DNA of 50,274 nt from the IMG/VR virus record IMGVR_UViG_3300046692_000219, positions 1-50,274 of that record. One strand, 5' to 3'. Positions 1,164-49,417 of this stretch are shown one piece after another (positions within the stretch are counted from its first letter, which is position 1; each line of letters starts with the position of its first letter). The DNA is from a virus. Under the pieces are notes generated by a model, which had not been told where the DNA came from, made no database searches, and worked only from the letters and a program-made list of their open reading frames with translations. The translations under genes were made by a program, and so were the position numbers.

Positions 1164-1180
1164 CCCTCGAAACAACTTTT
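1164..1180 (-). promoter_or_regulatory. Repeated regulatory element, copy 1 (TTGTTT type)
   Basis: CCCTCGAAACAACTTTT on the plus strand, ending 16 bases before the integrase GTG, so a bound protein would cover the int leader. Read on the minus strand there is no -10 box 16-18 bases beyond TTGTTT. It faces against int transcription, like all other copies in the window. Confidence 0.65.
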
Positions 1181-1196: not shown

Positions 1197-2765
1197 GTGC
1201 AAGAGATCGAGTGGTCCCCCGCTGAGCTGCGGGAACTGGAAGACCTGCGGCAGCGAGAAGCGCTCCTCCCGGCCGATGCTCCGCGTGCGCTTCTCTCCAT
1301 CCGTCTGTCGGTTCTGACCGACGAGACGACCTCCCCCGTCCGGCAGGAACTAGACCTCCGCCGCTTCTCGCTCAACCGCGGATGCCGCATCGCTGGCGTG
1401 GCGAGGGACCTGAACGTGTCGGCGACGAAGGTTCCGCCGTGGAAGCGCCCGGAGCTGGGCGACTGGATCAACAACCGCGCCCCCGAGTTCGACCAGATCC
1501 TCTTCTGGAAGCTGGACCGCTTCGTTCGGCGTATCTCCGACCTGCACCTGATGATCGAGTGGTGCAAGGAGTACAGCAAGATCCTTGCTGCCGATAAGGA
1601 CCCGATCGACCTCGACAGCGCCTACGGCGAAATGATGGTCACGATGATCGCCGGTATGGCGCGCATCGAGGCCGCCAACACTGGCGTCCGCCTGGAATCG
1701 CTCTGGAAGTACGCGCGCACTACGGACCGATGGGTGATCGGCAAGCCGGTCTACGGCTACACGACGGAAGAGACCCCGGAGGGCCGGAAACTCGTCGTCC
1801 ACCCGTTCAACAAGCGGGTCCTGAAGTGGATCTACGCCATGCTCATGCGCGGTCGGTCCATGTACAAGATCACTCAGATAGTGAACCGGGCCGGGGTGCC
1901 GGCCCCCAACGGTGGCAAGTGGTACGCGAGGAACCTGACGTCGATCCTGACTAACCCAGCCTTGAAGGGCCTGCGAGTCATTCGACCGCCCAAGGCGAAG
2001 ACCAAGGAAATCTCCCGGATCGTCTACGGCACGGATGGGCAGCCCATAAGGCTCGCTCCACCGGTCTTCACGGACGAAGAATTTGATCAGATTCAGGAGC
2101 GCCTGAAGGCCAACGCCAAGCACGGCCGGAAGGACTCGAAGGGGAAGAAGCTGTCCCTGTTCCTGGGCGTGATCAAGTGCGGGAACTGCGGTGCCAACAT
2201 GTACAAGCACGTCTCGAAGAGGAAGCGCCCAGATGGCAGCGAAAGGTTGTACCCGAAGCTGCGTTGCTCGTCGTACACCAAGGACCCCTGCGGCGCTCCG
2301 GTCTTTGATCCGGAGGAGATGTACGGCGCACTCGCCGATACGGTCCTTGATCAGTTGGGCGACTTCGAAGTGGTCCACCGTGAGTACGCCCGAGGTGCCG
2401 AGAACCTGGCCCGCGTCAACGAGCTACAGGCGTCGATCAAGCACTACATGGATGGGCTCGCCCCTGGCGGTTCCTTCGCGGTGGGTGGCTTCATCCAGAA
2501 GCAGGCCCAGGAAGCCCTACAGAAGTTGGGTGCCGAACTGGAAACCATCGACCCTGAGACGACTCAGGACAGGTGGCACTACAAGACGATGGGTGTCACC
2601 TACCGGGAGCACTGGTCGAAGGTGGGTACGGACCAGATGGAGAAGGACTTGGTCCGAGGCGGTATCACGTTCCTGGTGTATCGCGATCACTGTGACCTGC
2701 TCATCCCTGATGACGTGAAACAGCGATTGGTCGTCAAGGACGACTACTTCAAGAAGAAGCTGTAA
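1197..2765 (+). CDS. int: Large serine integrase
   Basis: A 522-residue site-specific recombinase that would integrate the phage by attP x attB recombination and excise it with a directionality factor. The N-terminal resolvase domain (about 30-170) carries SIRLSVLTDETTSPVRQ, with R36, catalytic S38 and R49 in the RxS...RQ pattern. The recombinase domain follows (about 180-290). A zinc ribbon has CGNC near 328-331 and CSSYTKDPC near 356-364. A helical, coiled-coil-like segment follows (about 390-450). The start is GTG with a weak AGG-type ribosome site, just after a copy of the repeated element. The length is normal for the family. Monocistronic, followed by a strong terminator. Confidence 0.95.
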   Translation: MQEIEWSPAELRELEDLRQREALLPADAPRALLSIRLSVLTDETTSPVRQELDLRRFSLNRGCRIAGVARDLNVSATKVPPWKRPELGDWINNRAPEFDQILFWKLDRFVRRISDLHLMIEWCKEYSKILAADKDPIDLDSAYGEMMVTMIAGMARIEAANTGVRLESLWKYARTTDRWVIGKPVYGYTTEETPEGRKLVVHPFNKRVLKWIYAMLMRGRSMYKITQIVNRAGVPAPNGGKWYARNLTSILTNPALKGLRVIRPPKAKTKEISRIVYGTDGQPIRLAPPVFTDEEFDQIQERLKANAKHGRKDSKGKKLSLFLGVIKCGNCGANMYKHVSKRKRPDGSERLYPKLRCSSYTKDPCGAPVFDPEEMYGALADTVLDQLGDFEVVHREYARGAENLARVNELQASIKHYMDGLAPGGSFAVGGFIQKQAQEALQKLGAELETIDPETTQDRWHYKTMGVTYREHWSKVGTDQMEKDLVRGGITFLVYRDHCDLLIPDDVKQRLVVKDDYFKKKL

Positions 2766-2803: not shown

Positions 2804-2902
2804 TTAGCGCTCTACGACCTTGACCAACTCACGGTCGCCGGTCGGGCTGACCTTGTAGACGTACACCTTCACTGGAACCCCTCGAAGCAACTTATTGGTC
2901 AT
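2804..2902 (-). CDS. 32-residue protein at the end of the early operon
   Basis: ATG at 2902 overlaps the TGA of the dCMP deaminase gene in an ATGA junction, and the frame closes with TAA at 2804. The product begins MTNKLLRG and has a short beta-strand-like middle (VKVYVYKVS). Codons 2-8 are formed by a copy of the repeated regulatory element, so the site lies inside the gene. No family recognised. Coupling, and its position between gene and terminator, support it being real. Confidence 0.5.
   Translation of the reverse strand: MTNKLLRGVPVKVYVYKVSPTGDRELVKVVER
2878..2898 (-). promoter_or_regulatory. Repeated regulatory element, copy 2 (TTGCTT type, intragenic)
   Basis: Begins CCCCTCGAAGCAACTTATTG on the plus strand. 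It lies inside the 32-residue ORF at the very end of the early operon. Minus-strand TTGCTT is followed only by a poor -10 (GTGTAC region), so a promoter role is doubtful. A roadblock or repressor site is possible. Confidence 0.6.
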
Positions 2903-7654: not shown

Positions 7655-7675
7655 CCCTCGAAACAACTTTTAGGG
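7655..7675 (-). promoter_or_regulatory. Repeated regulatory element, copy 3 (TTGTTT type)
   Basis: Begins CCCTCGAAACAACTTTTAGG, a full match, 43 bases upstream of the thyX ATG and directly after the terminator of the preceding gene. No TANNNT -10 lies 16-18 bases beyond TTGTTT on the minus strand. Either an unusual promoter starts here or the site is a transcription-blocking operator. Confidence 0.7.
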
Positions 7676-8240: not shown

Positions 8241-8274
8241 CCCTCGAAACAACCCCTCAAAGCAACTTTTGGGG
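8241..8274 (-). promoter_or_regulatory. Repeated regulatory element, copies 4 and 5 (tandem)
   Basis: CCCTCGAAACAAC (8241-8253, lacking the T-run) abuts a second copy beginning CCCCTCAAAGCAACTTTTGG (8253-8274). Both face the same way and lie 36-69 bases upstream of the ATG at 8205. No clear -10 is seen at 17-18 bases from either. Tandem placement suggests cooperative or stronger binding. Confidence 0.7.
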
Positions 8275-10302: not shown

Positions 10303-10311
10303 GCGTGCCTT

Positions 10312-10518
10312 TCAGAAGGAGAGGTTGTTTCGGTGCTTCGCGGCCTGGGCCTCGTACAGGACGCTGGTCAGGCCGTTGAGGTCGGCGGGGGTGAGGTTGA
10401 ATTCCGCGGTGCCCTCTTCGGTCGCCACCAGGACGTACGTCAGGCTCTCGGGCCCGTCGTCGTAGACGACCGTGATCTCTACGTTGGCTTCGGCGTAGTG
10501 CTTGCGGGTCTCGATCAT
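10312..10518 (-). CDS. 68-residue protein of unknown function
   Basis: The start ATG 10518 overlaps the TGA of the sigma-like gene (ATGA). The product is a small alpha/beta-type protein (VEITVVYDDGPESLTYVLVA, then a helix ADLNGLTSVLYEAQAAK). It lies immediately upstream of the reductase, whose ribosome site follows its stop. No family recognised. Confidence 0.65.
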   Translation of the reverse strand: MIETRKHYAEANVEITVVYDDGPESLTYVLVATEEGTAEFNLTPADLNGLTSVLYEAQAAKHRNNLSF

Positions 10519-11075
10519 GCGGCGGCCTTTCCGGTGCGCAGGTGGCTGTTCATGGCGATGGCAAGGGCGTCCACGGCGCGGTAGGACATCTTGCGTTCGG
10601 CGTCGTCCTTGGGAGGCAGGCCGTAAATGAAGACCCGCGTGAGGACGTCTCGGTAGCGGTCGGTCAGCTTGCGCATGGAGGCGGAGGCGTCCAGCCGGGC
10701 CGACATGATGTTGTCGGTGATCCGGCACTTGGTCAGGTCGTCCTTCTTGCCGATGAGAGAGGAGACTTCCTCGTCGGTGTAGATGAACGTGCGGAGCGCG
10801 TTACGGGCCTCCTCGGGCGTGTAGTAGTACTGCCCGTCCAAGAGGTCCCGCTGATTCTGTTCCTTGGACGCGTACTGCTTGGAGACTCGCCAGGCCACCT
10901 TCCGAAGGAACTCGTCGTCGTCCTGGCGCTTGGCGATGTAGGACGCCTGCTCGACCATGTGGACCAAGATTTCCTGCTGGACATCTTCGGCCTCAACGAC
11001 CGGCCACTTCAGCGCCATTTCCTTGGCGACCTTCTGTGCGATGTCGTTGATGTGGTCCCAGTTGAGGTCAGTCAC
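10515..11075 (-). CDS. Sigma-factor-like DNA-binding protein
   Basis: 186 residues. The N-terminal third resembles sigma-70 region 2 of ECF-size factors (AEDVQQEILVHMV, FLRKVAWRVSKQYASKEQNQ). A C-terminal helical part (LTDRYRDVLTRVFIYGLPP ... MSYRAVDALAIAMNSHL) could be region 4. The linker holds a charged, poorly conserved insert. If genuine, it could redirect host RNA polymerase to phage promoters. It starts directly after the metallophosphatase stop. Similarity is by pattern only; a divergent HTH protein with no sigma function is possible. Confidence 0.6.
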   Translation of the reverse strand: MTDLNWDHINDIAQKVAKEMALKWPVVEAEDVQQEILVHMVEQASYIAKRQDDDEFLRKVAWRVSKQYASKEQNQRDLLDGQYYYTPEEARNALRTFIYTDEEVSSLIGKKDDLTKCRITDNIMSARLDASASMRKLTDRYRDVLTRVFIYGLPPKDDAERKMSYRAVDALAIAMNSHLRTGKAAA

Positions 11076-11879
11076 TTACGCCGCCTTCGCAAACTTGCCG
11101 TTGTTCCCGCGCTTGATCTCGCCGAATCGCTCGCCCTCGACCACGAACGAACCGTCATCCTCGACCGGGATTGCGTGAGGGGTCGCGGCGTACTTTCCGG
11201 CGTAGAAGAGGCCAAAGCCTCTCTGCCAGTTGGCCGGACCGTTCTTGAGGTATCCGGCCTTCCTCACGTCCATGAGGTGTCCGACCTCGAAGCCGTAGAT
11301 CGTCTTCAGCCTTCCTCCGAACCCGTGGGACTCAGGGGAAACGGCCAGCCGGTGAGTGTGGCCCATGACCAGGGACACGCCTGCCTTCTTTGCCTTCATG
11401 GCCGCGGTGCGTCCGGCGACCTGGTTCAGGCCGGGCGACTCGTGCCCGTGAATGGCCACCCAGCCGGGGGCGAAGGGGTAGTACGGCTCCACCAGTTCGG
11501 CCCCGAAGCCGTCGAAGTCCAGCAGGCTTTCGAAGCGGTAATGGACGTCGTCAGCGGCCAGAGCCGGGGCGTTCTTCTCCAGGTACTTTTCCGGCCGCTC
11601 ATCGTGGTTGCCCTTGAGGATCTTCAGCGGGCCGTCGTACACGGCACGGAGCGGTGCCATGAAGTTGACCTTGGCGTACTCAGAGTCTCGGATGACTCCC
11701 CCGGCGAACTCGTACCGCGTGCCGGCCGTCCAGCGGGACGGGGCCGGGTAGTCGACCAGGTCTCCGATCTGGATTACCTCGTCGGGCTTGTAGTCGCCGA
11801 TGAAGTTGATGATGTTGCGCACGGCGCGCTTGTCCTCGTAGGGCATCTGCGTGTCAGAGATGACGACTATTCGCTTCAC
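11076..11879 (-). CDS. Calcineurin-like metallophosphoesterase
   Basis: 267 residues with the five metal-binding blocks of the superfamily: ISDTQMP (D9; the usual DxH His is replaced by Gln), IGDLVD, GNHDE, IHGHE and GHTHR. It would hydrolyse a phosphoester bound by two metals; the substrate is unknown. The start GTG 11879 overlaps the stop of the DUF3310 gene. In L5-like phages a related phosphoesterase sits at the same point between reductase and primase, suggesting a DNA or nucleotide substrate. Confidence 0.88.
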   Translation of the reverse strand: MKRIVVISDTQMPYEDKRAVRNIINFIGDYKPDEVIQIGDLVDYPAPSRWTAGTRYEFAGGVIRDSEYAKVNFMAPLRAVYDGPLKILKGNHDERPEKYLEKNAPALAADDVHYRFESLLDFDGFGAELVEPYYPFAPGWVAIHGHESPGLNQVAGRTAAMKAKKAGVSLVMGHTHRLAVSPESHGFGGRLKTIYGFEVGHLMDVRKAGYLKNGPANWQRGFGLFYAGKYAATPHAIPVEDDGSFVVEGERFGEIKRGNNGKFAKAA

Positions 11880-12355
11880 TGGCTTTCCTCCGCCTCAAGC
11901 TGCTTGATTTCGTAGTCGACGTACCAGCGGGCCTTTTTCAGGTCCTCGACCGTGCGGCCCTTGAAGTCGGCACGGAACAGGTACTTGAGTGCGTTGCCTC
12001 GGACGAATCCGAAGTTCTTGGTGATGTCGATGACTTCGAGTCCGCCCGGAAGCCACGTGTAGTGAGCCGGGTGGTTCACCGCATCGTTTTCCCTCGAAAC
12101 AACTTCTTGGGCAGAAGAAAGGTCGGCCGTGGCCAACAGGAACTCGCTTTCGTGCATCAGCTCTTCGTCCGTGAAGCAGAGCGCTCCGCCGTCCTCGAAC
12201 TGGACCTCATAGGGGTACGGCAGGCTCTCTGCGTCGTAGACCGTCTCGACGGTGCCGACGCGGTTGGCGTACAGGCCGGCCGCGATGTCAGAGGGGGTGC
12301 ACGACGCTGGGGCGGCGATAACGACTCGATCCCCCACCTTGAAGCGCAGACTCAC
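11876..12355 (-). CDS. KOW/SH3-like domain fused to a DUF3310 domain
   Basis: 159 residues. Positions 1-68 look like a small SH3/KOW barrel (RFKVGDRVVIAAP ... NRVGTVETVYDAE ... YEVQFEDGGALCF). After a polar linker (about 70-90), residues 91-155 match DUF3310, a domain found in many phage nucleotide kinase or replication-associated proteins (VNHPAHYTWLPGGLEVIDI, ALKYLFRADFKG, EDLKKARWYVDYEI). The DNA coding for the linker contains a copy of the repeated regulatory element. The start GTG overlaps the preceding TGA. Biochemical activity of DUF3310 is unknown to me. Confidence 0.8.
   Translation of the reverse strand: MSLRFKVGDRVVIAAPASCTPSDIAAGLYANRVGTVETVYDAESLPYPYEVQFEDGGALCFTDEELMHESEFLLATADLSSAQEVVSRENDAVNHPAHYTWLPGGLEVIDITKNFGFVRGNALKYLFRADFKGRTVEDLKKARWYVDYEIKQLEAEESQ
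12091..12111 (-). promoter_or_regulatory. Repeated regulatory element, copy 6 (TTGTTT type, intragenic)
   Basis: Begins CCCTCGAAACAACTTCTTGG, in the same orientation as the others, wholly inside the DUF3310 fusion gene in the sequence for its linker (AQEVVSREN). No -10 follows on the minus strand, so it cannot be a normal promoter. It is the best single example of a site placed within a transcription unit. Confidence 0.65.
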
Positions 12356-12546
12356 GCGGTGACCTCCTCCAGCTCGTCATCCCGGAACCAGGCCCCGATC
12401 TGCCATTCGTCGTCGTCCAGGACAACGGAGGTGGCCTCGAACCAGTCGGCGTAGTTCACGGCCTGGATCGTGCCGAGCCAGCCGCCCAGCTCATCGATCT
12501 CGTCCTTGACTCGGACTCGCGTTCCCGGCTCCCACTTGCTGATCAC
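12352..12546 (-). CDS. Small SH3/KOW-like protein
   Basis: 64 residues from GTG 12546, overlapping the primase stop, and itself overlapping the next GTG. The fold pattern WEPGTRVRVKDEIDELGGWLGTIQAV resembles the N-terminal barrel of the next gene, suggesting duplication of an SH3/KOW-like module. The C-terminus is strongly acidic. No specific function. Confidence 0.65.
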   Translation of the reverse strand: MISKWEPGTRVRVKDEIDELGGWLGTIQAVNYADWFEATSVVLDDDEWQIGAWFRDDELEEVTA

Positions 12547-13211
12547 AGGCCCAGCCTCTTTCGGTACTCGCTCACACCATGGGTGTGAATGAATGAATTG
12601 ATGTCGTGTCCGTCCCCAAGGACGATGACCTTGCCGTTGGGCATTTCCGCAGCCCGCTTGTCTGCTGCGGCGATTCCCGGTTCGTCGTCGTCGGCGATGA
12701 TGAAGACCACCTCGAAGCCGACGAAGGCAGGGTCGAAGTACGGCAGCCATGCGGATGTGCCTTGGGTGCCAGCACAGGGGACGTCAGCCAGCTCGGACGC
12801 CTCAGCGTCGAACTCGCCCTCGCTCAGGGCGATGTATGGCGTCGGCTTGATCAGCGCCGCCGTGTTGTAGAGGCGCGGATGGTCACCTGGCAGGCTCCGA
12901 TACTTCCCGTGGCCCTGGTGCTGTTCCTTGCGGGTCGGGGCGTAGTACTGGCCGTTCTCGTCCTTCACGCACTCGTCGGCGATGCATCGATAGCGGATGG
13001 TGGCTACCGCGTGCTCTCCGCCTGCGGGCCGGAAGTAGGGGATGGCCAGCATTCCCGTCATCCGTTCGTCACCAGTTCTCGCCGAACCGACGTACCCGAT
13101 TCCGAACCGGCTCGCTGCTTCCCCCAAACCGCGGGCGTTCATGTACGCCTCGGCCGGGCTCCCCGCGAACTGACTGAAGTACTCCTTGGCCGCCTCCACT
13201 GAATCGGCCAT
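12543..13211 (-). CDS. DNA primase, TOPRIM domain part
   Basis: 222 residues from ATG 13211 (AGGA ribosome site 8 bases upstream). It contains TOPRIM motifs: the glutamate of ALSEGEFDA and the DxD of FIIADDDEPG, which bind catalytic metal in DnaG-type primases. The central RKEQHQGHGKYRSLPGDHPRL resembles the DnaG RNA-polymerase region. It lacks the N-terminal zinc domain, which is present in the overlapping upstream frame (13069-13461). The two could be separate polypeptides or one protein joined by a +1 shift near 13215-13225. It ends in a GTG overlap with the next gene. Confidence 0.85.
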   Translation of the reverse strand: MADSVEAAKEYFSQFAGSPAEAYMNARGLGEAASRFGIGYVGSARTGDERMTGMLAIPYFRPAGGEHAVATIRYRCIADECVKDENGQYYAPTRKEQHQGHGKYRSLPGDHPRLYNTAALIKPTPYIALSEGEFDAEASELADVPCAGTQGTSAWLPYFDPAFVGFEVVFIIADDDEPGIAAADKRAAEMPNGKVIVLGDGHDINSFIHTHGVSEYRKRLGL

Positions 13212-13461
13212 CTGCAAATTCCTGGGCCTGCTTGAAGCCACAGCCTTCCTCTCGCATGATCACGTCCAAGCTGTCTTCCCTGACATCACAGGCAAAGCAG
13301 CTCCAGCGCTGCTTGTCCGTGCTGACGGATGCGCTCGGATTGGATTCGTTGTGCGCCGGGAGTGGGCACAGAATCTTCTGCCAGCCGCCACGGGGCTGGA
13401 CTTGCACTCCGTAGTAGTGGTTCAGGACTTCACTGATCGGAGGCTTGGGGCTGTCGCTCAT
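13069..13461 (-). CDS. DNA primase, zinc-binding (CHC2-type) domain part
   Basis: The ORF starts at ATG 13461 (GAGGAAG ribosome site). Residues about 10-80 form the primase zinc module: ILCPLPAHNESNPSAS and WSCFACDVREDSLDVIM, giving C-H-C-C ligands. From about 13210 on, the frame overlaps the TOPRIM ORF for some 140 bases and codes for an Arg/Gly-rich tail with no similarity (GRFSGGGQG and so on), which probably is not the natural end. Moving from this frame to the TOPRIM frame needs +1. It is either a programmed shift, a two-protein primase, or an indel. Confidence 0.7.
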   Translation of the reverse strand: MSDSPKPPISEVLNHYYGVQVQPRGGWQKILCPLPAHNESNPSASVSTDKQRWSCFACDVREDSLDVIMREEGCGFKQAQEFADGRFSGGGQGVLQSVRGEPGRGVHERPRFGGSSEPVRNRVRRFGENW

Positions 13462-13570
13462 CTTCGATCTTCCTCGTGATGACGGGAAAGTCGTAGCGCC
13501 GGTAGGAGTCGATGTAAGACTTGTTGTTTCCACGCCATTCACGGGCGTCCACATTGATGCCGTTGGGCAT
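13430..13570 (-). CDS. 46-residue protein of unknown function
   Basis: ATG 13570 overlaps the TAA of the endonuclease VII gene (TAATG). Its 3' end overlaps the primase zinc-domain start by 32 bases. The product is polar, with NVDAREWRGNNKSYIDSYR and a charged C-terminus. No known domain. Tight coupling and the otherwise empty stretch support it. Confidence 0.5.
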   Translation of the reverse strand: MPNGINVDAREWRGNNKSYIDSYRRYDFPVITRKIEDERQPQASDQ

Positions 13571-13995
13571 TACGCGTCCTTGTCGTACGTGTACCTCGGG
13601 CCCAGAACTCGCCAGGCCGGGTAGTTTTCGAGGTAATCGGCTGCTCGCCTGAGCACTTCGGGCCTGTCTCGTGCGCCTCGGGCCAAGAGCTGACCGTTAC
13701 AGCGCTGGCAGAGGAGTCCTCGAATAGCCTCGGTCTTGTGGCAGTGGTCTACGGCGAGGTTTGTGCGCCGGGTCTCCTGGCAGATCGCGCAGCGTCCGCC
13801 CTGGGCCTCGAAGAGGGTCTGGTAGTCCTCGTTCGTGAGGCTGTAGGTGGCCTGTAGGCGGGCGTTCCGGCTTGCGGTTCGCCTGGTTGCCTTTCGGCAG
13901 GTGCTACAGACCTTCCCTCGCGGAGTAAAGAACTTCTCTGCCCTGTTCTTCGCGCACTTCTCGCACTGGCGGTATCCCTTGCGAGGTTCAGCCAC
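13570..13995 (-). CDS. Endonuclease VII-type Holliday-junction resolvase
   Basis: 141 residues from GTG 13995, overlapping the preceding gene by 8 bases. Two zinc pairs (CEKC and CSTC at the N-terminus; CAIC and CQRC around the core) frame the His-Me nuclease motif LAVDHCHKTEAIRGLLCQRCN, typical of recombination endonuclease VII. In this fold the DHCH histidine acts as base, with a metal held by nearby residues. It resolves branched replication and recombination DNA before packaging. An extra N-terminal cysteine module (about 10-40) precedes the usual domain. Confidence 0.9.
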   Translation of the reverse strand: MAEPRKGYRQCEKCAKNRAEKFFTPRGKVCSTCRKATRRTASRNARLQATYSLTNEDYQTLFEAQGGRCAICQETRRTNLAVDHCHKTEAIRGLLCQRCNGQLLARGARDRPEVLRRAADYLENYPAWRVLGPRYTYDKDA

Positions 13996-14335
13996 GCCGA
14001 AGGGTCGCCTCAAGACGAAGCTGCATCTTCATGTCGTAGAGACCGTCTGCGAGGTCCCGCAGGTAATCGAGAGGAACGACTTGCCAGGTACGTCCCTGGG
14101 CCGTCGGAAGGGAGATCGCGGCGACGTGAATTCCGCGGCCTCCGTGCCGGACGAGGTCTCGGGCCAGGCTCCGGAGGTTGAATCGGCGGCGGTCCTTGAC
14201 CTGAAGGACGACAGCCACCACGCCCCCGCCGGCCGCCGCTACTTCCATGGCAGAGATATCGGGCTGCTCTTCGAGGAGAACGTCAACGATCTCCTTCTCG
14301 ATGGTGTAACCGACGCCCGTGTAATTCTGCTTCAT
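13988..14335 (-). CDS. Unrecognised early protein, possible nuclease-like fold
   Basis: 115 residues from ATG 14335. It follows a promoter (-10 at 14358-14363) and has an excellent GGAGGGG ribosome site. The pattern helix (TIEKEIVDVLLEE), strands (VVAVVLQVKD) and basic stretch (RRRFNLRSLARDLVRHGG) is compatible with a restriction-endonuclease-like or resolvase fold, with the QVK as a weak echo of (D/E)xK. I do not claim it. It is the first gene of a leftward unit that includes endonuclease VII and primase. Confidence 0.7.
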   Translation of the reverse strand: MKQNYTGVGYTIEKEIVDVLLEEQPDISAMEVAAAGGGVVAVVLQVKDRRRFNLRSLARDLVRHGGRGIHVAAISLPTAQGRTWQVVPLDYLRDLADGLYDMKMQLRLEATLRRG

Positions 14336-14357
14336 GTGGTTTCCCCTCCTACTTCTT

Positions 14358-14395
14358 AGCTTACGCGCTTCGACCCCTCGAAGCAACTTTTAGGG
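14358..14395 (-). promoter_or_regulatory. Leftward promoter with repeated element, copy 7 (TTGCTT type)
   Basis: The element (14374-14395) supplies -35 TTGCTT (plus positions 14381-14386). Exactly 17 bases on is -10 TAAGCT (14358-14363), giving a start about 15-20 bases before the ATG at 14335. The hexamers and spacing are those of a sigma-70-like housekeeping promoter. A protein bound at the element would cover the -35 box. Confidence 0.75.
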
Positions 14396-14401
14396 TGTGA
14401 C

Positions 14402-15217
14402 TTAGAACTCTTCGTCAATATCCGTAAGGCGCATGTTGGTCCGGTTGAAGTCGTACGACGAGAAAGTCTCGCCACTCGCATCCACCAGGCCCTCACGGTT
14501 CTTGACGGCACTCACATGGAGAATCGTGCTGTCCATGCCGTCGACTTCCTTGTGAATGGTGAGGATCAGCGAAGGCACGCGGCCGATCTTCCCCTTCACG
14601 CCGGAAAGCGGAATGGGCTTCAGGCCGTCCGAGTGCTCACCGGTCACGTGGTGCAGCGACAGGACATGAGCCTTGGTCTCCCGCGCCATGTCGCTCATGT
14701 ACTCGCACATGGCTTCCAGGCCGAAGGTGAAGCCCTCCGCGTCTGCGGACGCTCCCCCGTCGACGTTCGTGATGTTGTCCACCACGATGAGATGCGGGTA
14801 GCAGCCGAACACCTCGTGATAGGCGGACAGGTCGCGTTCGATGTCCAAGGGGGTTGGCCGGGCGTTGTAGTTGAACCTGACCCACCAGCGCTGACCTAGG
14901 GCCGAGTAGTACTCGCCGAAGTCGTCCACGATCAGCTTCCGCTTGATCGTCTTGACGCTCTCGCCGGTGATGATGGCCGTGGCCCTGGAAAGCTGCGTGG
15001 CAGCTCCGGAGTCGGCACTGAAGTACAGGCACGGCAGGTTGCCGTACATCGCGAGGTTCAGAGCGAAGAGGCTCTTGCCCGTACCAGGTCCCGCGGCTAT
15101 GAGGCTGAACTCACCTCTGCGGAACTCGACTTCGTGGCGCTGTAGCCCCTTGAAGGGGCTCGGAAGCGGCTCGCCGGCCGCCCCCTTCACTCCGACGCTC
15201 TGTGCGAGCGAGTACAT
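14402..15217 (-). CDS. DnaB-like (RecA-fold) replicative helicase/ATPase
   Basis: 271 residues. Walker A is AAGPGTGKSL (41-50). The Walker B-like motif LIVVDNITNVDG lies near 140. VLSLHHVTGEHSDG resembles the DnaB/KaiC sensor (H4) region. An N-terminal DnaB domain is missing, so this is the core ATPase alone, as in other actinophages of this organisation. It would unwind DNA at the phage fork with the encoded primase and polymerase. Start ATG 15217 with a GGGAGG ribosome site. Its leader contains a regulatory element, a terminator hairpin and, further upstream, a promoter. Confidence 0.85.
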   Translation of the reverse strand: MYSLAQSVGVKGAAGEPLPSPFKGLQRHEVEFRRGEFSLIAAGPGTGKSLFALNLAMYGNLPCLYFSADSGAATQLSRATAIITGESVKTIKRKLIVDDFGEYYSALGQRWWVRFNYNARPTPLDIERDLSAYHEVFGCYPHLIVVDNITNVDGGASADAEGFTFGLEAMCEYMSDMARETKAHVLSLHHVTGEHSDGLKPIPLSGVKGKIGRVPSLILTIHKEVDGMDSTILHVSAVKNREGLVDASGETFSSYDFNRTNMRLTDIDEEF

Positions 15218-15250
15218 CAGTCACCCTCCCTTGAGGGGCCGGAATCCCGA

Positions 15251-15273
15251 CCCCTCGAAACAACTTTTACGGG
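15251..15273 (-). promoter_or_regulatory. Repeated regulatory element, copy 8 (TTGTTT type)
   Basis: Begins CCCCTCGAAACAACTTTTAC, 34 bases upstream of the helicase ATG and just downstream (in transcription order) of a terminator hairpin. No -10 is present at the expected distance. Confidence 0.7.
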
Positions 15274-15274
15274 T

Positions 15275-15299
15275 AAAAACAAGCCCGTTCACCGGGCCT
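15275..15299 (-). terminator. Terminator in the helicase leader
   Basis: On the minus strand GCCCGG-TGAA-CGGGC is followed by TTGTTTTTA. It lies after the nuclease gene but also after the promoter at 15313-15341, whose transcripts would meet it within about 30 bases. Confidence 0.7.
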
Positions 15300-15312
15300 C
15301 TTTCCTACTCTC

Positions 15313-15350
15313 AGCTTACCTCGGGGTTCCCCTCGAAGCAACTTTATCGG
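15313..15350 (-). promoter_or_regulatory. Leftward promoter with repeated element, copy 9 (TTGCTT type)
   Basis: The element at 15329-15350 gives -35 TTGCTT (15336-15341). Its -10 TAAGCT is at 15313-15318, spacing 17. The 12 bases beyond the -10 resemble those at the 14358 promoter (TAAGCT then AGA and GTAGGA). The site overlaps the stop codon of the Cas4-like gene. Confidence 0.75.
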
Positions 15351-16126
15351 CGTGAAAAAGAGCAGGCATGTCGCACGTCACAAAAACGGCAGCCAAAGCC
15401 AGGGCTCGCCGGGAAGTCGCCCCGCTTCACTCCCGCATCCATGGCGGCGTACCTCTCTCCCACTTGCTCTTCCGTGATCTCGTGCAGCTTCACAACACGA
15501 GACAGGTTCCCGTTCTTCGCCAGGTACCAATCCCCTGTATTCACAGGGACGTTGAAGACCTTCTCCATTGCCACCTTGTAAGTCTCAAGCTGGAACTTGG
15601 ACTTGGTGGTGCCGGTCTTGAGGTCCCGTACCCGCAGCGAATCGTCAGGCTCGAACACCAACTGGTCGATGTACCCGCGGACTTGAATGCCGCCGATCTC
15701 CGTCTTGAAGTACAGCTCCAGCGCGTCATCCCCGCTGGGCGTCATCCAGATTTCGGGCTGCTTCTCCTGGGCCCACTCCACATACCTGCGCGTGTGCTCC
15801 TGGCCCAGGACGTACCGGCGCTCGATGTCCTCGCCTCCGGTGCCGTTGGCGGACAGCCACCGGTCCGTGTTCGGCTCCTTGTCCAGGGCCTTGTTCACCA
15901 GGGCGCTGTACTGGTCGGAGAAGAGCTGTACGGCCTCGTCGGTGCTCATGGTCCGCTTCGATCGCTCCACGGCCTCAGCGGCGCTGTGGAAGGCCGTGCC
16001 GTGTGCCGACCAGGCGGCCGGTACGGGCACTACTCGTTCAACGCGCTGGAGGTAGAACCGCCAGGCGCACTCTTCGTACTGCTGAGTCTGAGAGACGCTT
16101 CGGGGCTGAGTAGCGATGTCGGTCAA
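15344..16126 (-). CDS. Cas4/RecB-family exonuclease
   Basis: 260 residues from TTG 16126, overlapping the preceding TGA (TTGA). It has PD-(D/E)xK nuclease motifs: GYIDQLVF (Asp), RVRDLKTGT (D and K) and the QLETYKVAM helix. Four cysteines typical of the Cas4/AddB iron-sulfur cluster are present: C20 (YEECAWRFY) and C246, C249, C255 (CRFCDVRHAC). It should be a single-strand-specific exonuclease used in phage recombination. The same gene lies upstream of the helicase in L5-like phages. It is not evidence for CRISPR; no array is present. Confidence 0.9.
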   Translation of the reverse strand: MTDIATQPRSVSQTQQYEECAWRFYLQRVERVVPVPAAWSAHGTAFHSAAEAVERSKRTMSTDEAVQLFSDQYSALVNKALDKEPNTDRWLSANGTGGEDIERRYVLGQEHTRRYVEWAQEKQPEIWMTPSGDDALELYFKTEIGGIQVRGYIDQLVFEPDDSLRVRDLKTGTTKSKFQLETYKVAMEKVFNVPVNTGDWYLAKNGNLSRVVKLHEITEEQVGERYAAMDAGVKRGDFPASPGFGCRFCDVRHACSFSRR

Positions 16127-16485
16127 CGGGCCACCTTCGGGCAGAGTCGGACGTACGTGTGGTTGGGGCTGCTCGGGAAGAGCGGGTGAGGGAACTGGTT
16201 CTCCTGTCGCTCGATCGTGATGTCGATGAGGCGAACGCCGTAGTCCCTCCACACCCTCTCCTCAAGGTCGACCAGGTCTTGGATCTCCCGGTCGGAGAGG
16301 TTGTCTCCGTAGGCGATGTCCCAGTACTCGCCAACGGGGTTCGCGATGCTGTGGACGATGAGCAAATTTGTGTCCTGAGTGATCCGCGTGCGGATCGTCT
16401 TGCTGGACTCGATCTCGTCCAGCACGGCCAACCGGCTTGTCACCTGCATGTCAGGTGAAGCGAGGCGCACCGCGGTACCGACCAT
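16123..16485 (-). CDS. First gene of the helicase/Cas4 unit, unknown function
   Basis: 120 residues. ATG 16485 is chosen over GTG 16491 because it lies 5 bases from GGGAG. The product has strand-rich beginnings (AVRLASPDMQVTSRLAVLDE) and an acidic middle (LSDREIQDLVDLEERVWRDYG). Not recognised. The gene follows the divergent-looking control gap 16492-16828 and couples by TTGA to the Cas4-like gene. Confidence 0.7.
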   Translation of the reverse strand: MVGTAVRLASPDMQVTSRLAVLDEIESSKTIRTRITQDTNLLIVHSIANPVGEYWDIAYGDNLSDREIQDLVDLEERVWRDYGVRLIDITIERQENQFPHPLFPSSPNHTYVRLCPKVAR

Positions 16486-16564
16486 GATCACTCCCTAGTT
16501 CGGTCGCAACCCGTCCCCTGCGTTGCGATCGCAAGCATGAGCCTATGGCAACACAACGTTGAAA

Positions 16565-16585
16565 CCCCTCGAAACAACTGTGACG
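16565..16585 (-). promoter_or_regulatory. Repeated regulatory element, copy 10 (TTGTTT type)
   Basis: Begins CCCCTCGAAACAACTGTGAC, 80 bases upstream of ATG 16485. The distal T-run is degraded. Seventeen bases past TTGTTT is GTGTTG, a poor -10. Confidence 0.65.
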
Positions 16586-16704
16586 TGGGCCACTTACTGG
16601 CGGTTACACGTTTGCCTTGACCTGCACTGTTACGCAGCCGTTACCTAAGCCGTACAACCCTTTGTGAAGAGGCCCTTCAGACTACGTTCGAATCTAGTTC
16701 GAAA

Positions 16705-16731
16705 AAACGAAAGGCCCCGCAATGCGGGGCC
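16705..16731 (-). terminator. Terminator of the repressor candidate gene
   Basis: GGCCCCGC-ATT-GCGGGGCC on the minus strand is followed by TTTCGTTTTTTC, about 100 bases after the gene stop, so the gene appears to be transcribed alone. Confidence 0.75.
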
Positions 16732-16828
16732 CTGGGCTGAGATGATCTAGTTGTCCGGTTCGCAAGTGCTTCAAGGCTCCTTCACCCGAAGTTCACTTCC
16801 GGTTTGCTGGTTCCTACCTGTGCGGTGA

Positions 16829-17326
16829 TCACTCAGACGGCACGTCAGGTAGTCGGAAGTGCTTCAGATCGGCCAGGGGCGGAGCACCCTTCTCATAGGG
16901 GTAGCGGACCACCAGGCGATCGTCACGGGGCTCCCGTGGCTCGAAGGCCCAGGGCTTCTCCCTCTCTGTGTCGTAGGAGAGGACCACGTTCTTCTCACGT
17001 ACGCGCTTCTCGAAGTTCAGGGCGTCGCGCCGCTGCCGGTCCGACAGCTCTCTGTCCCCGAGCCTGACCCGTAGCCAGAGCCGTAGGGACTGGATGGGGA
17101 ACATGGCGTGATGGGAGCCGGCCTCCTGGGTGGCGTGGACCCGCCACACCTTGGCGATCTCTGCACTGGCGTCGTTGGAGAACGGCCGACGCTCCAGCCC
17201 GAGCTTCTGGAACCTCTTGTTCACGGCCTGCGGCGTGACCCCGTACTTCTCAGCGATCTCCCGGTTGTTCATCCGTCCCATAACGAACAACCTGGTCATC
17301 TCGGCATCGCTGGGCAGCTTGGTCAT
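16829..17326 (-). CDS. HTH protein, probable immunity repressor
   Basis: 165 residues. A helix-turn-helix lies at about 18-42 (MNNREIAEKYGVTPQAVNKRF), followed by a mixed alpha/beta C-terminal part rich in Arg and aromatic residues. ATG 17326 is preferred over an upstream in-frame start because of GAGGA 8 bases upstream. It has its own promoter carrying a copy of the repeated element and its own terminator, and sits at the upstream end of the early arm, where L5-like phages keep their repressor. An asymmetric site without dyad symmetry fits a protein that binds as a monomer, as the L5 repressor does. Repressor identity is inferred from context. Confidence 0.65.
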   Translation of the reverse strand: MTKLPSDAEMTRLFVMGRMNNREIAEKYGVTPQAVNKRFQKLGLERRPFSNDASAEIAKVWRVHATQEAGSHHAMFPIQSLRLWLRVRLGDRELSDRQRRDALNFEKRVREKNVVLSYDTEREKPWAFEPREPRDDRLVVRYPYEKGAPPLADLKHFRLPDVPSE

Positions 17327-17363
17327 GGGCCATCCTCGGTCATGGTTTGTTGATCTTGGCGGG

Positions 17364-17401
17364 AGCATACAGACTCTGTACCCCTCGAAGCAACTCGGGG
17401 G
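17364..17401 (-). promoter_or_regulatory. Promoter of repressor candidate with repeated element, copy 11 (TTGCTT type)
   Basis: -35 TTGCTT (17388-17393), 18-base spacer, -10 TATGCT (17364-17369); the ATG is 38 bases further on. The element begins CCCCTCGAAGCAACTCGGGG, conserved at the -35 side but not in the distal T-run. Binding here would give autoregulation. Confidence 0.75.
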
Positions 17402-17771
17402 GCCAATGCGGGAGCAAACTCACTAGCAACGGTGTGAACTGGATCTCACTTCAGCAATCCCTTTCCTCTACCTACTACCAGGGACACATACATCATTAGT
17501 GAGAGAGCGAGTGAAACGAGCGAACGAACAGACAAAATGATCTGAGTTACCTGTGTGTAGTTCAAGAATTACTGTTGAAAACTTCAGCAACAGCGTTTCC
17601 GAAGCTATTGAGTGGTCTAGACCTAGTAGCGACCAGGTCTCTTTGAACTTCCTCCTGTTGATCCCTTCGTAGAGGGCCTGTGGGCCTTCCGAAGGTGTGG
17701 TCCTGGAGGACGGCCCCGGCTGCCAGACAAGTAACCGGCCGGGGCCCATAACTTGCAGCCATGGAGGGCCC
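17402..17771. other. Non-coding gap before the late region; candidate cos or promoter zone
   Basis: No supported gene. The stretch 17430-17640 is visibly more AT-rich than its surroundings. It contains repeated GAGCGA/AACGAGCGAAC motifs near 17505-17530 and an inverted repeat AGACCT/AGGTCT near 17620-17640. Arms GGCCCCGGC (17712-17720) and GCCGGGGCC (17738-17746) form another. A possible rightward promoter is TTACCT (17547-17552), 17 bases, TACTGT (17570-17575). Position between the two arms and before HNH/terminase genes suits a cohesive end. Confidence 0.45.
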
Positions 17772-18106: not shown

Positions 18107-18182
18107 TCTCTGATAGCTCAGTTGGCAGAGCAGCGGACTGTTAATCCGCGAGTCCCTGGTTCGAGTCCAGGTCGGGGAGCCA
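18107..18182 (+). tRNA. tRNA-Asn (GTT)
   Basis: A full cloverleaf: acceptor TCTCTGA pairing with TCGGGGA (two G-U pairs), D arm GCTC...GAGC, anticodon stem GCGGA/TCCGC with loop CTGTTAA (anticodon GTT), five-base variable loop, T arm CCTGG-TTCGAGT-CCAGG, discriminator G and encoded CCA. L5-like phages also carry tRNA-Asn near the left end. Confidence 0.9.
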
Positions 18183-18199
18183 TGCGGGTCGCACCCGCA
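18183..18199. repeat. Hairpin between the tRNA genes
   Basis: TGCGGGT-CGC-ACCCGCA, a perfect 7-bp stem directly after the tRNA-Asn CCA. It may act in processing or as a weak terminator. Confidence 0.5.
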
Positions 18200-18239
18200 G
18201 GCCCAGGGAACCGGTCGCGCGCAACCCGAACCCTGAGCG

Positions 18240-18312
18240 GTGCCCGTCGTCTAGTGGCCCAGGACTCCTCCCCTTCCGGGAGGCGACGCCGGTTCGAATC
18301 CGGTCGAGCACA
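18240..18312 (+). tRNA. tRNA-Glu-like gene with degenerate anticodon loop (possible pseudo-tRNA)
   Basis: Resembles actinobacterial tRNA-Glu: GTCGTCTAGTGG D-arm start, T arm GCCGG-TTCGAAT-CCGGT, acceptor GTGCCCG/CGAGCAC with one C-A mismatch. The anticodon stem CCTCC/GGAGG leaves loop CCTTCCG, giving TTC at 34-36 but C at position 33 instead of the near-universal T, and C at 37. CCA is not encoded (ACCG). It may be decayed, or used for something other than decoding. Confidence 0.6.
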
Positions 18313-18322
18313 CCGCCTTGCA

Positions 18323-18380: not shown

Positions 18381-18560
18381 ATGTATGCCGTCGACTGCAA
18401 CGGCCACTGCGACGACTGCCCCTTCACCTGGTGCAGCACCGCGCCGGCCACCAGGCCGAGCAAGGCCCAGCAGCGCAAGGGATGGCGGCAGGACGCTCTT
18501 GAGGAGCTGGACGACCTTGCGGACCTCTATGGGGTCGATGCGGGTCAGGTGAGGCTCTGA
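18381..18560 (+). CDS. Small zinc-finger-like protein before terminase
   Basis: 59 residues from ATG 18381 with GGAGG 6 bases upstream. Four cysteines at 6, 10, 13 and 18 (DCNGHCDDCPFTWC) should bind zinc. The rest is a charged helix (QQRKGWRQDALEELDDLADLYG). Its stop overlaps the terminase small subunit start (TGATGA), so it may belong to the packaging complex. Not recognised further. Confidence 0.7.
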   Translation: MYAVDCNGHCDDCPFTWCSTAPATRPSKAQQRKGWRQDALEELDDLADLYGVDAGQVRL

Positions 18561-18985
18561 TGACACGAGGACCCAAGCCCAAGCCGAACGCCGTGCGACG
18601 CAACAAGCACGAGCACGCCCAGGAGCTGGAGGCGGCTGTCCAGCCGGGCCGGGAAATGCCCCGCGGCCTCGGGATCACCACAGCTGGGGGCAAGCGCTTC
18701 TGGCGCACCTGGTCCACGTCACCCCAGACGCAGGGGTGGACAGAGACGGACTGGACCGAGCTGGAGATCACCACGAAGTTGGTGGACGAGTTCTACCGGG
18801 GCGAACTGAAACTCGCCTCCGAAATCCGCATGCGTGTCGCCAAGTGGGGAGCCACGGTCGAGGACCGCTCCAGGCTGCGCATGAAGATCGATGACGAATC
18901 CGAGGAAACGCCCGGCAAGGCGGACTCGGACCTTTCTGTTTCTGACATGGACGAGGAGCTGTTCAAGCTGCTTAACGACGCATAG
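18560..18985 (+). CDS. Terminase small subunit (P27-like)
   Basis: 141 residues. The basic start (TRGPKPKPNAVRRNKH) and following segment match the P27/phage terminase small-subunit style. The helical middle (WTELEITTKLVDEFYRGELK) and acidic C-terminus (MDEELFKLLNDA) suit oligomerisation and large-subunit contact. It would recognise the packaging site and hand DNA to the large subunit encoded 13 bases downstream. Confidence 0.8.
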   Translation: MTRGPKPKPNAVRRNKHEHAQELEAAVQPGREMPRGLGITTAGGKRFWRTWSTSPQTQGWTETDWTELEITTKLVDEFYRGELKLASEIRMRVAKWGATVEDRSRLRMKIDDESEETPGKADSDLSVSDMDEELFKLLNDA

Positions 18986-20561: not shown

Positions 20562-22022
20562 ATGAGCGAACCGGTTATTGCCTCTGTCCCGAGCAATCCT
20601 CTTCAGTGGCTTGAGTATCTGCACTCGAAGCTGCTGAGGCACCGGACAGGGTACCGGCGTCATTCCGCCTACTACGACGGAGAGCATCAGAAGTTGGTGT
20701 TCGCACAGGCGCGGCACCTCAACGAGTTCGGCCACATCTTCGAGAAGTGGCGGGACAACTTCTGCGGCCTGATCATCGACAGCGTCAACGAGCGCTTGGC
20801 CATCGACGGCTTCCGTATGACGGACGAGCCTGATGCGGACAAGGACGCTCGGGACATCTGGCAGCGGAACTTCCTCGATGCGGAGTCCAACGCTGGCCAC
20901 CTGGACGCGATGATCCACGGCACTGCCTTCGCTGTGGTGTGGGCCGATGCTGACGGCAAGCCAACGATCACGCTGGAGTCGGCAGAGAACGTCGTCGTGC
21001 AGTACAAGCCTGGCAGCCGTCGAGAGATCGAGGCCGCGGCGAAGTTCTACACGGATGACTGGGGCCGCCAGTGGTCGACTCTGTGGTTCGCCAACCGCGT
21101 CTACACCTTCCAGGCCGGCACGTTCGGCTGGGGCAATCCTTCGGCCGCCAAGTCGGTGAAGAACCCCCTGGGCGAAGTGCCTGTCGTTCCCCTGAACAAC
21201 AGGTCCCGCCTCACCGGTGAGCCTCTGTCGGACCTGACCACGGTCATCCCGCTTCAGGACGCGGTGAACAAGATCGTGTCTGACGCTCTCCTGGCGAGTG
21301 AGTATGCGGCCTGGCCGCAAAGGTATGTCACTGGCCTGGAAATCGTGGAGGACGACACTGGTAACCCGGTCGAGCCTTTCAAGATTGCCGTAGACAAGCT
21401 GCTTCAGGCTGAAGACCCGAACGTGAAGTTCGGCCAGTTCGAGGCAGCCGACCTGGGGAATTACGTCAAGCTGGCAGACATGCTCGTTCAGCACATGGCG
21501 AGCACGAGCCGTATCCCCTTCCACTACTTCCTGAACAACGGTGGTGTGGCTCCCTCCGGTGAGTCCATAACCGCCGCTGAGGCTGGTCTGATAGCCAAGA
21601 CTCGTGAACGCATGCTCCATTTCGGAGAGGGCTGGGAACGCGTAATGCGCCTGGCCTTCAAGGTAATGAAGGACAAGCGTGCAGAGGCTTGGAGTGCCGA
21701 GGTCATTTGGCGTGACCCTGAGAATCGGACCGAAAGCCAACACATGGATGCACTTCTGAAGCTGAAGATGATCGGTGTTCCGACAGATCAGCTTCTCTCC
21801 GATGCGGGTTACACACCGCAGCAGATCGCCCGCTTTAAGTCGATGCGGGAGGACGACGCCAAGGCCGCAATGGAACTGGCGAAGAAGTTCCCCGATCCGG
21901 CTCAGCAGGCCAACGAGCAGGCCGGCCAGCCTAGCTCGGATGTCCAGAAAGCTGCCGTCAAGCAGCCGCAGGGCAATTCTGGTAACGCAGCCCGCAAGGC
22001 TGTGAACCCGGTTAAGGGTTGA
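20562..22022 (+). CDS. Portal protein (SPP1 gp6-like)
   Basis: 486 residues immediately after terminase. N-terminal pattern HRTGYRRHSAYYDGEHQKL and RDNFCGLIIDSVNERLAIDGF matches the SPP1-type portal family. A long C-terminal helix rich in Lys/Ala/Gln (KAAMELAKKFPDPAQQANEQ) fits the portal crown/barrel. Twelve copies would form the DNA channel at one capsid vertex. A terminator follows. Confidence 0.92.
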   Translation: MSEPVIASVPSNPLQWLEYLHSKLLRHRTGYRRHSAYYDGEHQKLVFAQARHLNEFGHIFEKWRDNFCGLIIDSVNERLAIDGFRMTDEPDADKDARDIWQRNFLDAESNAGHLDAMIHGTAFAVVWADADGKPTITLESAENVVVQYKPGSRREIEAAAKFYTDDWGRQWSTLWFANRVYTFQAGTFGWGNPSAAKSVKNPLGEVPVVPLNNRSRLTGEPLSDLTTVIPLQDAVNKIVSDALLASEYAAWPQRYVTGLEIVEDDTGNPVEPFKIAVDKLLQAEDPNVKFGQFEAADLGNYVKLADMLVQHMASTSRIPFHYFLNNGGVAPSGESITAAEAGLIAKTRERMLHFGEGWERVMRLAFKVMKDKRAEAWSAEVIWRDPENRTESQHMDALLKLKMIGVPTDQLLSDAGYTPQQIARFKSMREDDAKAAMELAKKFPDPAQQANEQAGQPSSDVQKAAVKQPQGNSGNAARKAVNPVKG

Positions 22023-22046
22023 TCCCTTAATCCTTTTCATTACGCA

Positions 22047-22071
22047 GGCTCCCGCAATGGGGGCCTTTTTT
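22047..22071 (+). terminator. Terminator after portal gene
   Basis: GGCTCCC-GCAAT-GGGGGCC followed by seven T-rich bases. Probably partial, to set lower levels of terminase/portal than capsid. Confidence 0.75.
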
Positions 22072-22097
22072 GATGCACCGAAATGGATGGATCACGC

Positions 22098-22679
22098 ATG
22101 GACGAGAACACGCAGAACGCTGGCACCACTTCCACCGAGGGCGCTCCGACCGGCGAGGCCGGCACCCCTCAGACTCCGACGCTCGAAACACTTCAGGCGG
22201 AGGTCGACAAGTGGAAGTCCCTGTCCCGCACGAATGAGAAGCGGTGGCAGGACGCCTCTGCCGAGCGCGATGCGCTCAAGGAGTCCGGCATGACGGACGC
22301 AGAGAAGGCAATTGAGGCCGCTAAGGCTCAGGCCCGATCCGCGACCCTCGCCGAATACGGCACTCGGCTTGCTGACGCCGAGCTGCGTGCACAGGCCGCA
22401 AAGGCAGGTGTGGAGCTTCCTCCCGCCGAGTTCCTGAACCTGACGAAGTTCGTCGGTGAAGACGGCTCTGTGAATGCCGATGTGATCGGCACTTTCGTCT
22501 CGTCCCTCCCTAAGCCGGTCGCTGAGCCCGAATTCGATCAGGGCCTTGGCCTTGGTCGTCAGGGCGGGTCCGGAGTTCAGCAGCTCACCCGCGACGACCT
22601 TTCCAACATGTCCCCGCAGGAGATCAACGCTGCCCGCAAGGCGGGTCAGCTCGACGCCCTTATGCGAGGCGCAATCTGA
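22098..22679 (+). CDS. Capsid scaffolding protein
   Basis: 193 residues directly before the major capsid gene. The disordered Thr/Gly/Ala start is followed by a long charged coiled coil (LQAEVDKWKSLSRTNEKRWQ and onward to about 110) and a basic helix-containing C-terminus (NAARKAGQLDALMRG), the layout of phage scaffold proteins whose C-terminus binds coat. No protease gene or motif is visible. The start could be ATG 22083; ATG 22098 has the better GGATGG site. Confidence 0.85.
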   Translation: MDENTQNAGTTSTEGAPTGEAGTPQTPTLETLQAEVDKWKSLSRTNEKRWQDASAERDALKESGMTDAEKAIEAAKAQARSATLAEYGTRLADAELRAQAAKAGVELPPAEFLNLTKFVGEDGSVNADVIGTFVSSLPKPVAEPEFDQGLGLGRQGGSGVQQLTRDDLSNMSPQEINAARKAGQLDALMRGAI

Positions 22680-22698
22680 CAAACCCGTGAGGTAACCT

Positions 22699-23763
22699 AT
22701 GGCATTTCTTTCTCAGGCTGGCAATAACACTGGGGCCGGCCAGCTTCAGACCACGCAGGGCCAGTTCATTCCCGAGGTCTGGACTTCGCAGCTCATTGCG
22801 GACATCGAGGAAAACCTTATCCTCGGTGCTTCCCCCTTCACCAACCGGCAGTATGAGGGCGACTTCCGCCGTGAGGGCGACGTAGTCCGAATCCCGCACT
22901 TCGTTGACGGGACTGTCACTGACAAGGGCCTGGTGAAGGCGTACGGCGAGATCGGTACTGCCGACCACGCGGCCCTTGAGTACATGAAGATGACCGTCGC
23001 GAAGGGTTCCAGCTTCCACCTGGAGATCGACGCTCTTCACCAGCTCCAGACCAAGGGCGGCATCGACCTGATGTCCAACCTGGTGTCGCAGCGTGCGCGT
23101 CAGACCGCGCTTGCCATTGACGAGCTGGTTGCGCTGACCCTGCTCGCCGCTCTCCAGGGCAAGGACCTGAACGGCGCGGAGAACCGCACCGCCACTGTGT
23201 CCGGCCTCCCCGCGCTGGAGCTGGGCGCTATCTCGAAGGTCCAGGCGACCGACGTGGACGCCCCCGCTGCGGACAAGCTGTCCGTCTACGACTACGTGGT
23301 CAAGATGCTCGAAGTGCTCGACACTCGCAGCGCTCCGCAGGACCGGTACCTGTTCGTCTCCCCGCGCATGCGCTCTCTCCTCCTGCGGGACGAGAAGTTC
23401 ATCGACGCGTCGCAGCACGGCGGCGGCGGTTCGGTCGTGGCCTCCGGTCAGATCGGCTCCATTCTCGGCCTGCCGGTCGTGGTCGCGAACGCGCTGGGCA
23501 ACCACTCCCGGCCCAACTCGCCGGTCATCAAGAAGGGCAACGAGAAGTTCGGCAGCGTCGACCTGTTCATGGGCTCGACCTCCGCTGTCTCCGTCGTCGT
23601 GCCGTTCGCCGAGATGGCCGCGTACAACCCGGAGAAGTCCTTCACGTCGGCCGTGAAGTCCCGAGTCATCTACGACGCGAAGGTGTGCCGGCCTGAGCAG
23701 CTTCTCGTGGCTCAGGGTGTCGAGGCGGAGATCAACACTCACAACGCCCCGGCTGCTGGCTGA
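22699..23763 (+). CDS. Major capsid protein (HK97 fold)
   Basis: 354 residues, start ATG 22699 with GAGG 7 bases upstream. A flexible N-arm is followed by LIADIEENLILGASPFTNR and a long spine helix (HQLQTKGGIDLMSNLVSQRARQTALAIDE split over strands), and a P-domain-like segment with DRYLFVSPRMRSLLL, typical of HK97-type coat proteins. The position after scaffold and before connectors supports the call. It would form the icosahedral shell. Confidence 0.92.
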   Translation: MAFLSQAGNNTGAGQLQTTQGQFIPEVWTSQLIADIEENLILGASPFTNRQYEGDFRREGDVVRIPHFVDGTVTDKGLVKAYGEIGTADHAALEYMKMTVAKGSSFHLEIDALHQLQTKGGIDLMSNLVSQRARQTALAIDELVALTLLAALQGKDLNGAENRTATVSGLPALELGAISKVQATDVDAPAADKLSVYDYVVKMLEVLDTRSAPQDRYLFVSPRMRSLLLRDEKFIDASQHGGGGSVVASGQIGSILGLPVVVANALGNHSRPNSPVIKKGNEKFGSVDLFMGSTSAVSVVVPFAEMAAYNPEKSFTSAVKSRVIYDAKVCRPEQLLVAQGVEAEINTHNAPAAG

Positions 23764-23792
23764 TCTGACCTTCCCTAACTGAGGGGAGGGAC

Positions 23793-24146: not shown

Positions 24147-24154
24147 GAGTCCGC

Positions 24155-25217: not shown

Positions 25218-25243
25218 TACCCCCCTGGCTTAGCCAGACCGAA

Positions 25244-25267
25244 GGGCCCCTTGTGGGGCCCTTTTTT
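25244..25267 (+). terminator. Terminator before major tail gene
   Basis: GGGCCCC-TTGT-GGGGCCC followed by six T. A smaller hairpin (CTGGCT/AGCCAG) lies at about 25225-25237. Confidence 0.85.
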
Positions 25268-25292
25268 GTTTCCCCGCTTGAGGAGTTCCTTT

Positions 25293-48558: not shown

Positions 48559-48594
48559 GACTAAGAGCGTCCACCCCTCACAGCAACCTTTAGG
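48558..48594 (-). promoter_or_regulatory. Repeated regulatory element, copy 12, promoter-like
   Basis: The element (48574-48594, beginning CCCCTCACAGCAACCTTTAG) gives -35 TTGCTG (48581-48586) with TAGTCG (48558-48563) 17 bases on. It overlaps the end of the gene at 48590 and would direct transcription to 48493. Confidence 0.55.
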
Positions 48595-49395: not shown

Positions 49396-49417
49396 GCTCC
49401 CACAACAACTTTTAGGG
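49396..49417 (-). promoter_or_regulatory. Repeated regulatory element, diverged copy 13
   Basis: GCTCCCACAACAACTTTTAG keeps the CAACTTTTAG half but has lost CCCTCGA. It lies 99 bases upstream of the ATG at 49297 and 19 bases from stem-loop copy D. No -10. Confidence 0.5.

Follow-up and report, generated by a model that had tools for sequence, protein, structure and literature searches.

The gene at positions 16829 to 17326 on the minus strand of the window, the 50,274-bp virus record that was analysed at its full length, very probably codes for the repressor by which a temperate Streptomyces-type phage maintains lysogeny and immunity, a repressor of the kind known from L5 and TipsytheTRex that acts via one-way sites. 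The original prediction, which had read the gene as a candidate immunity repressor, is supported by homology with the repressors of cluster A phages over nearly the full length of the protein. Both cluster A phages and R4-like Streptomyces phages are known to carry repressor-stoperator systems (PMC10276819); the system itself is not new, and what the window repressor adds is an apparently undescribed site specificity. A search for the sites of this phage group among open-licence papers found no description of them.

The repressor gene and its place in the genome

The features that define the repressor gene and its surroundings are as follows.

16829..17326, minus strand: predicted immunity repressor gene, 165 aa (ORF call with profile and fold matches)
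17388..17393, minus strand: -35 box TTGCTT of the repressor promoter, inside a copy of the repeat
17364..17369, minus strand: -10 box of this promoter, TATGCT, kept in relatives
16711..16733, minus strand: intrinsic terminator of the repressor gene, a 10-bp hairpin with the tail TCGTTTTTTC
1197..2765, plus strand: serine integrase, 522 aa, intact and free of internal stops
18560-18985: small terminase, a gene separate from that of the repressor

The open reading frame was present as first described, with its N-terminal HTH at residues 7-41. Its start at 17326 is preceded by a GAGGA ribosome site, and the same start is conserved in relatives; an alternative in-frame ATG at 17368 falls within the predicted -10 box. 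The promoter, TTGCTT-18-TATGCT, is a consensus-level call that was not reported by a strict sigma-70 scan; its -35/-10 pair is kept in relatives, with changes in the spacer. The repeat that had been placed over the -35 box was recovered there as a perfect 14-mer at 17382-17395 covering TTGCTT, and the proposed terminator as a 10-pair hairpin at 16733-16711. The stem of the latter is conserved in all relatives examined, with a weaker T-run in those of 82% identity; a terminator pattern scan found 2 against 1.1 expected, which is weak evidence taken alone. Given its own promoter with the repeat and its own hairpin terminator, the repressor gene stands as a separate unit, with the divergent HNH/tRNA/terminase genes on one side and the early operon on the other, and its claimed separation from the lytic early operon is borne out to the extent that this consensus-level promoter and the terminator are present. 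Between rep and the HNH gene, at about 17475-17525, lies a block of approximately 45 bp, GGACACATACATCATTAGTGAGAGAGCGAGTGAAACGAGCGAAC (plus strand), which is invariant in relatives with diverging flanks and part of which, CGTTCGCTCGTTTCACTCGCTCTCTCA, is present in Ponzi too; it may act as a rightward promoter or in some other control. On the other side of the repressor gene, the early-operon leader (16490-16545) is nearly invariant among relatives and contains the palindrome TTGCGATCGCAA.

The intact serine integrase, which shares 48% identity with its phiScoe2 counterpart and 47% with that of phage Joe, identifies the phage as temperate by gene content. The gene order rep-hypothetical-Cas4/RecB exonuclease-DnaB-endonuclease VII-primase-RNR-ThyX-DNA polymerase agrees with that of the A2 phage RedRock, the cluster A genome used for synteny, and synteny was also observed with Ibantik, Ponzi, and Success. 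The RedRock synteny supports the L5-like position attributed earlier to the repressor, with one difference: rep is here the first early gene, opening the early arm at a divergent junction with the HNH/tRNA/terminase genes, and does not lie within a longer arm. Between the HNH endonuclease gene and that for the small terminase are genes for tRNA-Asn and tRNA-Glu (18107-18314, plus strand), and in Success this place is occupied by eight tRNAs.

It is very unlikely that the protein is instead a Cro-like or timing regulator of early genes, binding the repeats in lytic growth while another gene sets immunity. The repressor gene does sit right at the early/structural junction, and the early gene at 10515-11075 (minus strand), a possible second regulator by its sigma factor-like match (PHROG 354, E 3.8e-24), points to more than one regulator in this phage. 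However, in cluster A phages there is one repressor and no sign of a Cro analogue (PMC6550527), homologues whose function has been tested act as immunity repressors (PMC9283540), and the gene, with a promoter and terminator of its own, stands apart from the lytic early operon.

The one-way repeat in the window and in related phages

At no more than two mismatches, the repeat AGTTGYTTCGAGGG occurs in 11 copies against 0.74 expected, a number reached in 0 of 100 shuffles. All 11 copies are on the minus strand and span positions 1164-17395, the region of leftward early genes. Judged by ORF context, all appear to be intergenic, outside confident coding regions, the least certain being the copy at 12091, which needs a downstream codon as the gene start. 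A -10 box follows at 17-18 bp for three sites (17382, 15330, and 14375), whose promoters are kept in relatives, and for none of the others. The sites, with two degenerate ones, are listed below.

17382..17395, minus strand: predicted autoregulatory operator AGTTGCTTCGAGGG, a perfect copy over the -35 box of the repressor promoter
16566..16579, minus strand: predicted repressor site AGTTGTTTCGAGGG, ahead of the early operon (from gene 16123-16491 on)
15330..15343, minus strand: probable operator, TTGCTT-17-TAAGCT, at an internal promoter before dnaB
15252..15265, minus strand: probable stoperator before dnaB, lacking a -10 box
14375..14388, minus strand: probable operator, TTGCTT-17-TAAGCT, downstream of dnaB
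12091..12104, minus strand: probable stoperator (repeat search and ORF context)
8254..8267, minus strand: predicted repressor site with one mismatch, the upstream partner in a tandem pair after the RNR gene
8241..8254, minus strand: predicted repressor site with one mismatch, the downstream partner in the same pair
7655..7668, minus strand: probable stoperator before thyX
2879..2892, minus strand: predicted repressor site between the minus-strand ORF 2899-3324 and the integrase
1164..1177, minus strand: predicted repressor site between the integrase and the leftmost minus-strand ORF
48575..48588, minus strand: degenerate site with three mismatches, where the relative G001 has a one-mismatch site
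49397..49410, minus strand: degenerate site with three mismatches, where G001 has a perfect site

A division of the sites into operators (C-variants, GTTGCTT) and stoperators (T-variants) was considered and rejected; every site with a -10 box is of the C type, but several C-type sites have none. Tandem sites start 12-13 bp apart, both in the window (8241-8267) and in G001 (13973/13986, 21444/21456, and 25683/25695), a spacing smaller than the roughly 20 bp that one monomer should need. Comparison with the 54.7-kb G001 suggests that the window record is without roughly 4 kb at its ends; the missing ends would include the equivalents of G001 sites 25683/25695 and 26265 (G001 region 21444-27957).

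Each related phage group has its own repeat, tracking its repressor: AGTTGYTTCGRGGG in G001, the repressor of which is 82% identical; GTTGAWTCGAGAC in the relatives L036, L049, L050, and L051; GTTGWCACGAGAC in Ibantik and L048; AGTTGCCTCCTGGG in Success; ACTTGAAACTGTCA, with 3 perfect copies, in Ponzi; and CTTGACANNCACC in the A2 mycobacteriophages. A generic search for top repeats gave only GC-rich noise in the whole window, Ponzi, Success, R4, RedRock, and L048, and the site types for those genomes were taken from 11-mer counts, from intergenic gaps (Ponzi), or from near relatives (L052 for RedRock and Ibantik for L048); for R4, no site type was recovered. When five site types were counted across genomes, each was nearly confined to its own group and lay mostly on the strand of the repressor, giving a block-diagonal pattern. 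TTG stands at the upstream end in all site types and the downstream half is variable; relatives keep their sites at the same places, with CGAGGG changed to CGGGGG at several of those in G001. In most groups a site is found upstream of rep, at 53-81 bp in the window clade, Ponzi, and A2 and near 113 bp in the L036 and Ibantik groups. This rep-proximal site is imperfect in G001 (3 mismatches), L036, Ibantik, and Ponzi, and in Success no convincing site was seen near rep.

These distributions bear on a further explanation, to which we give a very slight chance, namely that some other protein recognises the repeats, or that they are simply -35 elements of early promoters, the adjacent HTH gene being unrelated to them. 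The TTG in every site does resemble a -35 core and three sites are followed by a -10 box at 17-18 bp, but conservation over 14 bp extends far past a -35 box, most sites are without a -10 box, and the site sequence shifts with the repressor family across phages. With the repeats taken as sites of the repressor, the perfect copy in its own promoter makes it most likely that the protein represses its own synthesis, negative autoregulation being the simplest reading. Such autorepression may be neither strong nor general, since the rep-proximal site is degenerate in G001 and no convincing one was seen in Success.

The repressor protein and its proposed mode of action

The best PHROG matches of the protein are 3929 and 357, both 'transcriptional repressor'; the former is the family of the phage R4 repressor and the latter that of the cluster A repressors. 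Relatives identified by tblastn were Ibantik gp55 (40% identical), which was deposited as 'immunity repressor', Ponzi gp38 (37%), Success gp38 (33%), and the R4 repressor (29%), together with many cluster A repressors, and none were found in 84,980 bacterial/archaeal genomes. The profile comparison with cluster A repressors that had been proposed as a check revealed near full-length homology: hmmsearch with a profile of ten window-type repressors matched that of TipsytheTRex (7r6r) at E 5.5e-13 over residues 10-149, and hhalign against nine A2-type repressors gave E 1.8e-15 over 128 columns. The homology spans both the HTH and the C-terminal Stoperator domain. There is next to no chance that this is an HTH protein with another role, be it a small terminase, a homing-endonuclease fragment, or a sporulation regulator (close similarity to a small-terminase or sporulation-regulator family having been named beforehand as telling against a repressor), because the matches to small terminase and HNH families are weaker and confined to the N-terminal HTH (PHROG 1206 covers residues 13-46 only, E 0.001), as are the weak ones to sporulation and sigma regulators, the C-terminal domain matches repressor families only, and a separate small terminase is encoded at 18560-18985.

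An AlphaFold model (pLDDT 83), built from 16 diverse sequences including those of cluster A and with no templates, comprises the HTH at residues 7-41, a bridge helix at 49-60, and a Stoperator-type domain from 72 to about 145, with two long helices (72-88 and 96-111) and a C-terminal strand region; a model from six near-identical sequences only (pLDDT 57) was set aside. By Foldseek, 7r6r was the only significant fold match (E 4.2e-6), and matches to Mos1, GcrA, and Lrp were rejected with their coverage limited to the HTH. Structural comparison of the model with 7r6r gave Z 12.8 over 153 residues (next row, Z 6.1) with an rmsd of 6.5, which suggests a different domain angle. The base-reading residues R45, W50, K81, and R108 of the TipsytheTRex repressor, which determine specificity for the L5 site, align with P32, K37, H73, and D101; they are not conserved, and the positions vary among window-type relatives. 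By these differences the window repressor would fall outside the GGTGGMTGTCAAG (L5-site) specificity group and within the wider family, and they fit its predicted recognition of a different site.

The L5 repressor blocks both initiation and elongation at its sites (PMC9283540, PMC6550527). In the TipsytheTRex model, it is the HTH that polymerase encounters first, and of the two domains the Stoperator domain varies more (PMC9283540); in cluster A the same end of the site (TGTCAAG, in the opposite-strand reading) is invariant while the other positions follow immune specificity (PMC5559632). By analogy, we infer that the HTH of the window repressor reads GTTG and its Stoperator domain CGAGGG. A single monomer would thereby read the asymmetric AGTTGYTTCGAGGG with two domains, a mode of binding that the modelled two-domain fold fits, the HTH taking the conserved GTTG end, first met by RNA polymerase, and the Stoperator domain the variable CGAGGG one. 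Initiation would be blocked at the three sites that form -35 boxes, in the repressor's own promoter, before dnaB, and after dnaB, and elongating polymerase would be stopped at the other sites, which lie in early-gene gaps and are oriented with transcription. Together, the two blocks would silence the early arm of the prophage. Immunity, autorepression, and the elongation block are proposed on the basis of homology and layout.

Comparison with known repressor-stoperator systems

With this assignment, an uncultured phage group gains a proposed lysogeny switch and a predicted operator code, from which immunity groups among these phages should be predictable from sequence. The series of repressor/site pairs also offers a test of specificity change in a system of one protein and many sites, studied so far mainly in mycobacteriophages. 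We suggest, with somewhat less than even confidence, that the L5-type repressors of these Streptomyces-type phages make up a natural series covering at least five distinct site specificities. Across the series, the TTG end, to which the HTH would bind, would stay constant, and the remaining half would diverge in step with the Stoperator domain that reads it; G001, with its 82% identical repressor and one base changed at several sites, may show an immunity change partway.

Among the known systems, the stoperator system of R4 was described by Smith et al. 2013, as cited in PMC10276819. R4 gp29 belongs to the same repressor family by profile (PHROG 3929), and R4 shares the Streptomyces host group and a serine integrase; gp29 is, however, just 29% identical, and the window repeat was not found in the R4 stretch searched. 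Ibantik gp55, Ponzi gp38, and Success gp38 are encoded at the same location, with the early arm on one side and the HNH/terminase genes on the other, and like the window each of these phages has its own one-way repeats, but none of their sites (GTTGWCACGAGAC, ACTTGAAACTGTCA, and AGTTGCCTCCTGGG, respectively) is present in the window. With TipsytheTRex and L5 (A2), the window has in common the two-domain fold, asymmetric one-way sites with an upstream TTG end, a site before rep, and the gene order rep-hyp-Cas4 exonuclease-DnaB. It differs from them in the sequence of the site (GTTGYTTCGAGGG as opposed to CTTGACANNCACC), in the number of sites (about 11 compared to 20-30), in the confinement of its good sites to the early arm, and in its base-reading residues. 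Finally, rep in the window is the first early gene and has its own terminator, whereas the early arm of RedRock extends past rep.
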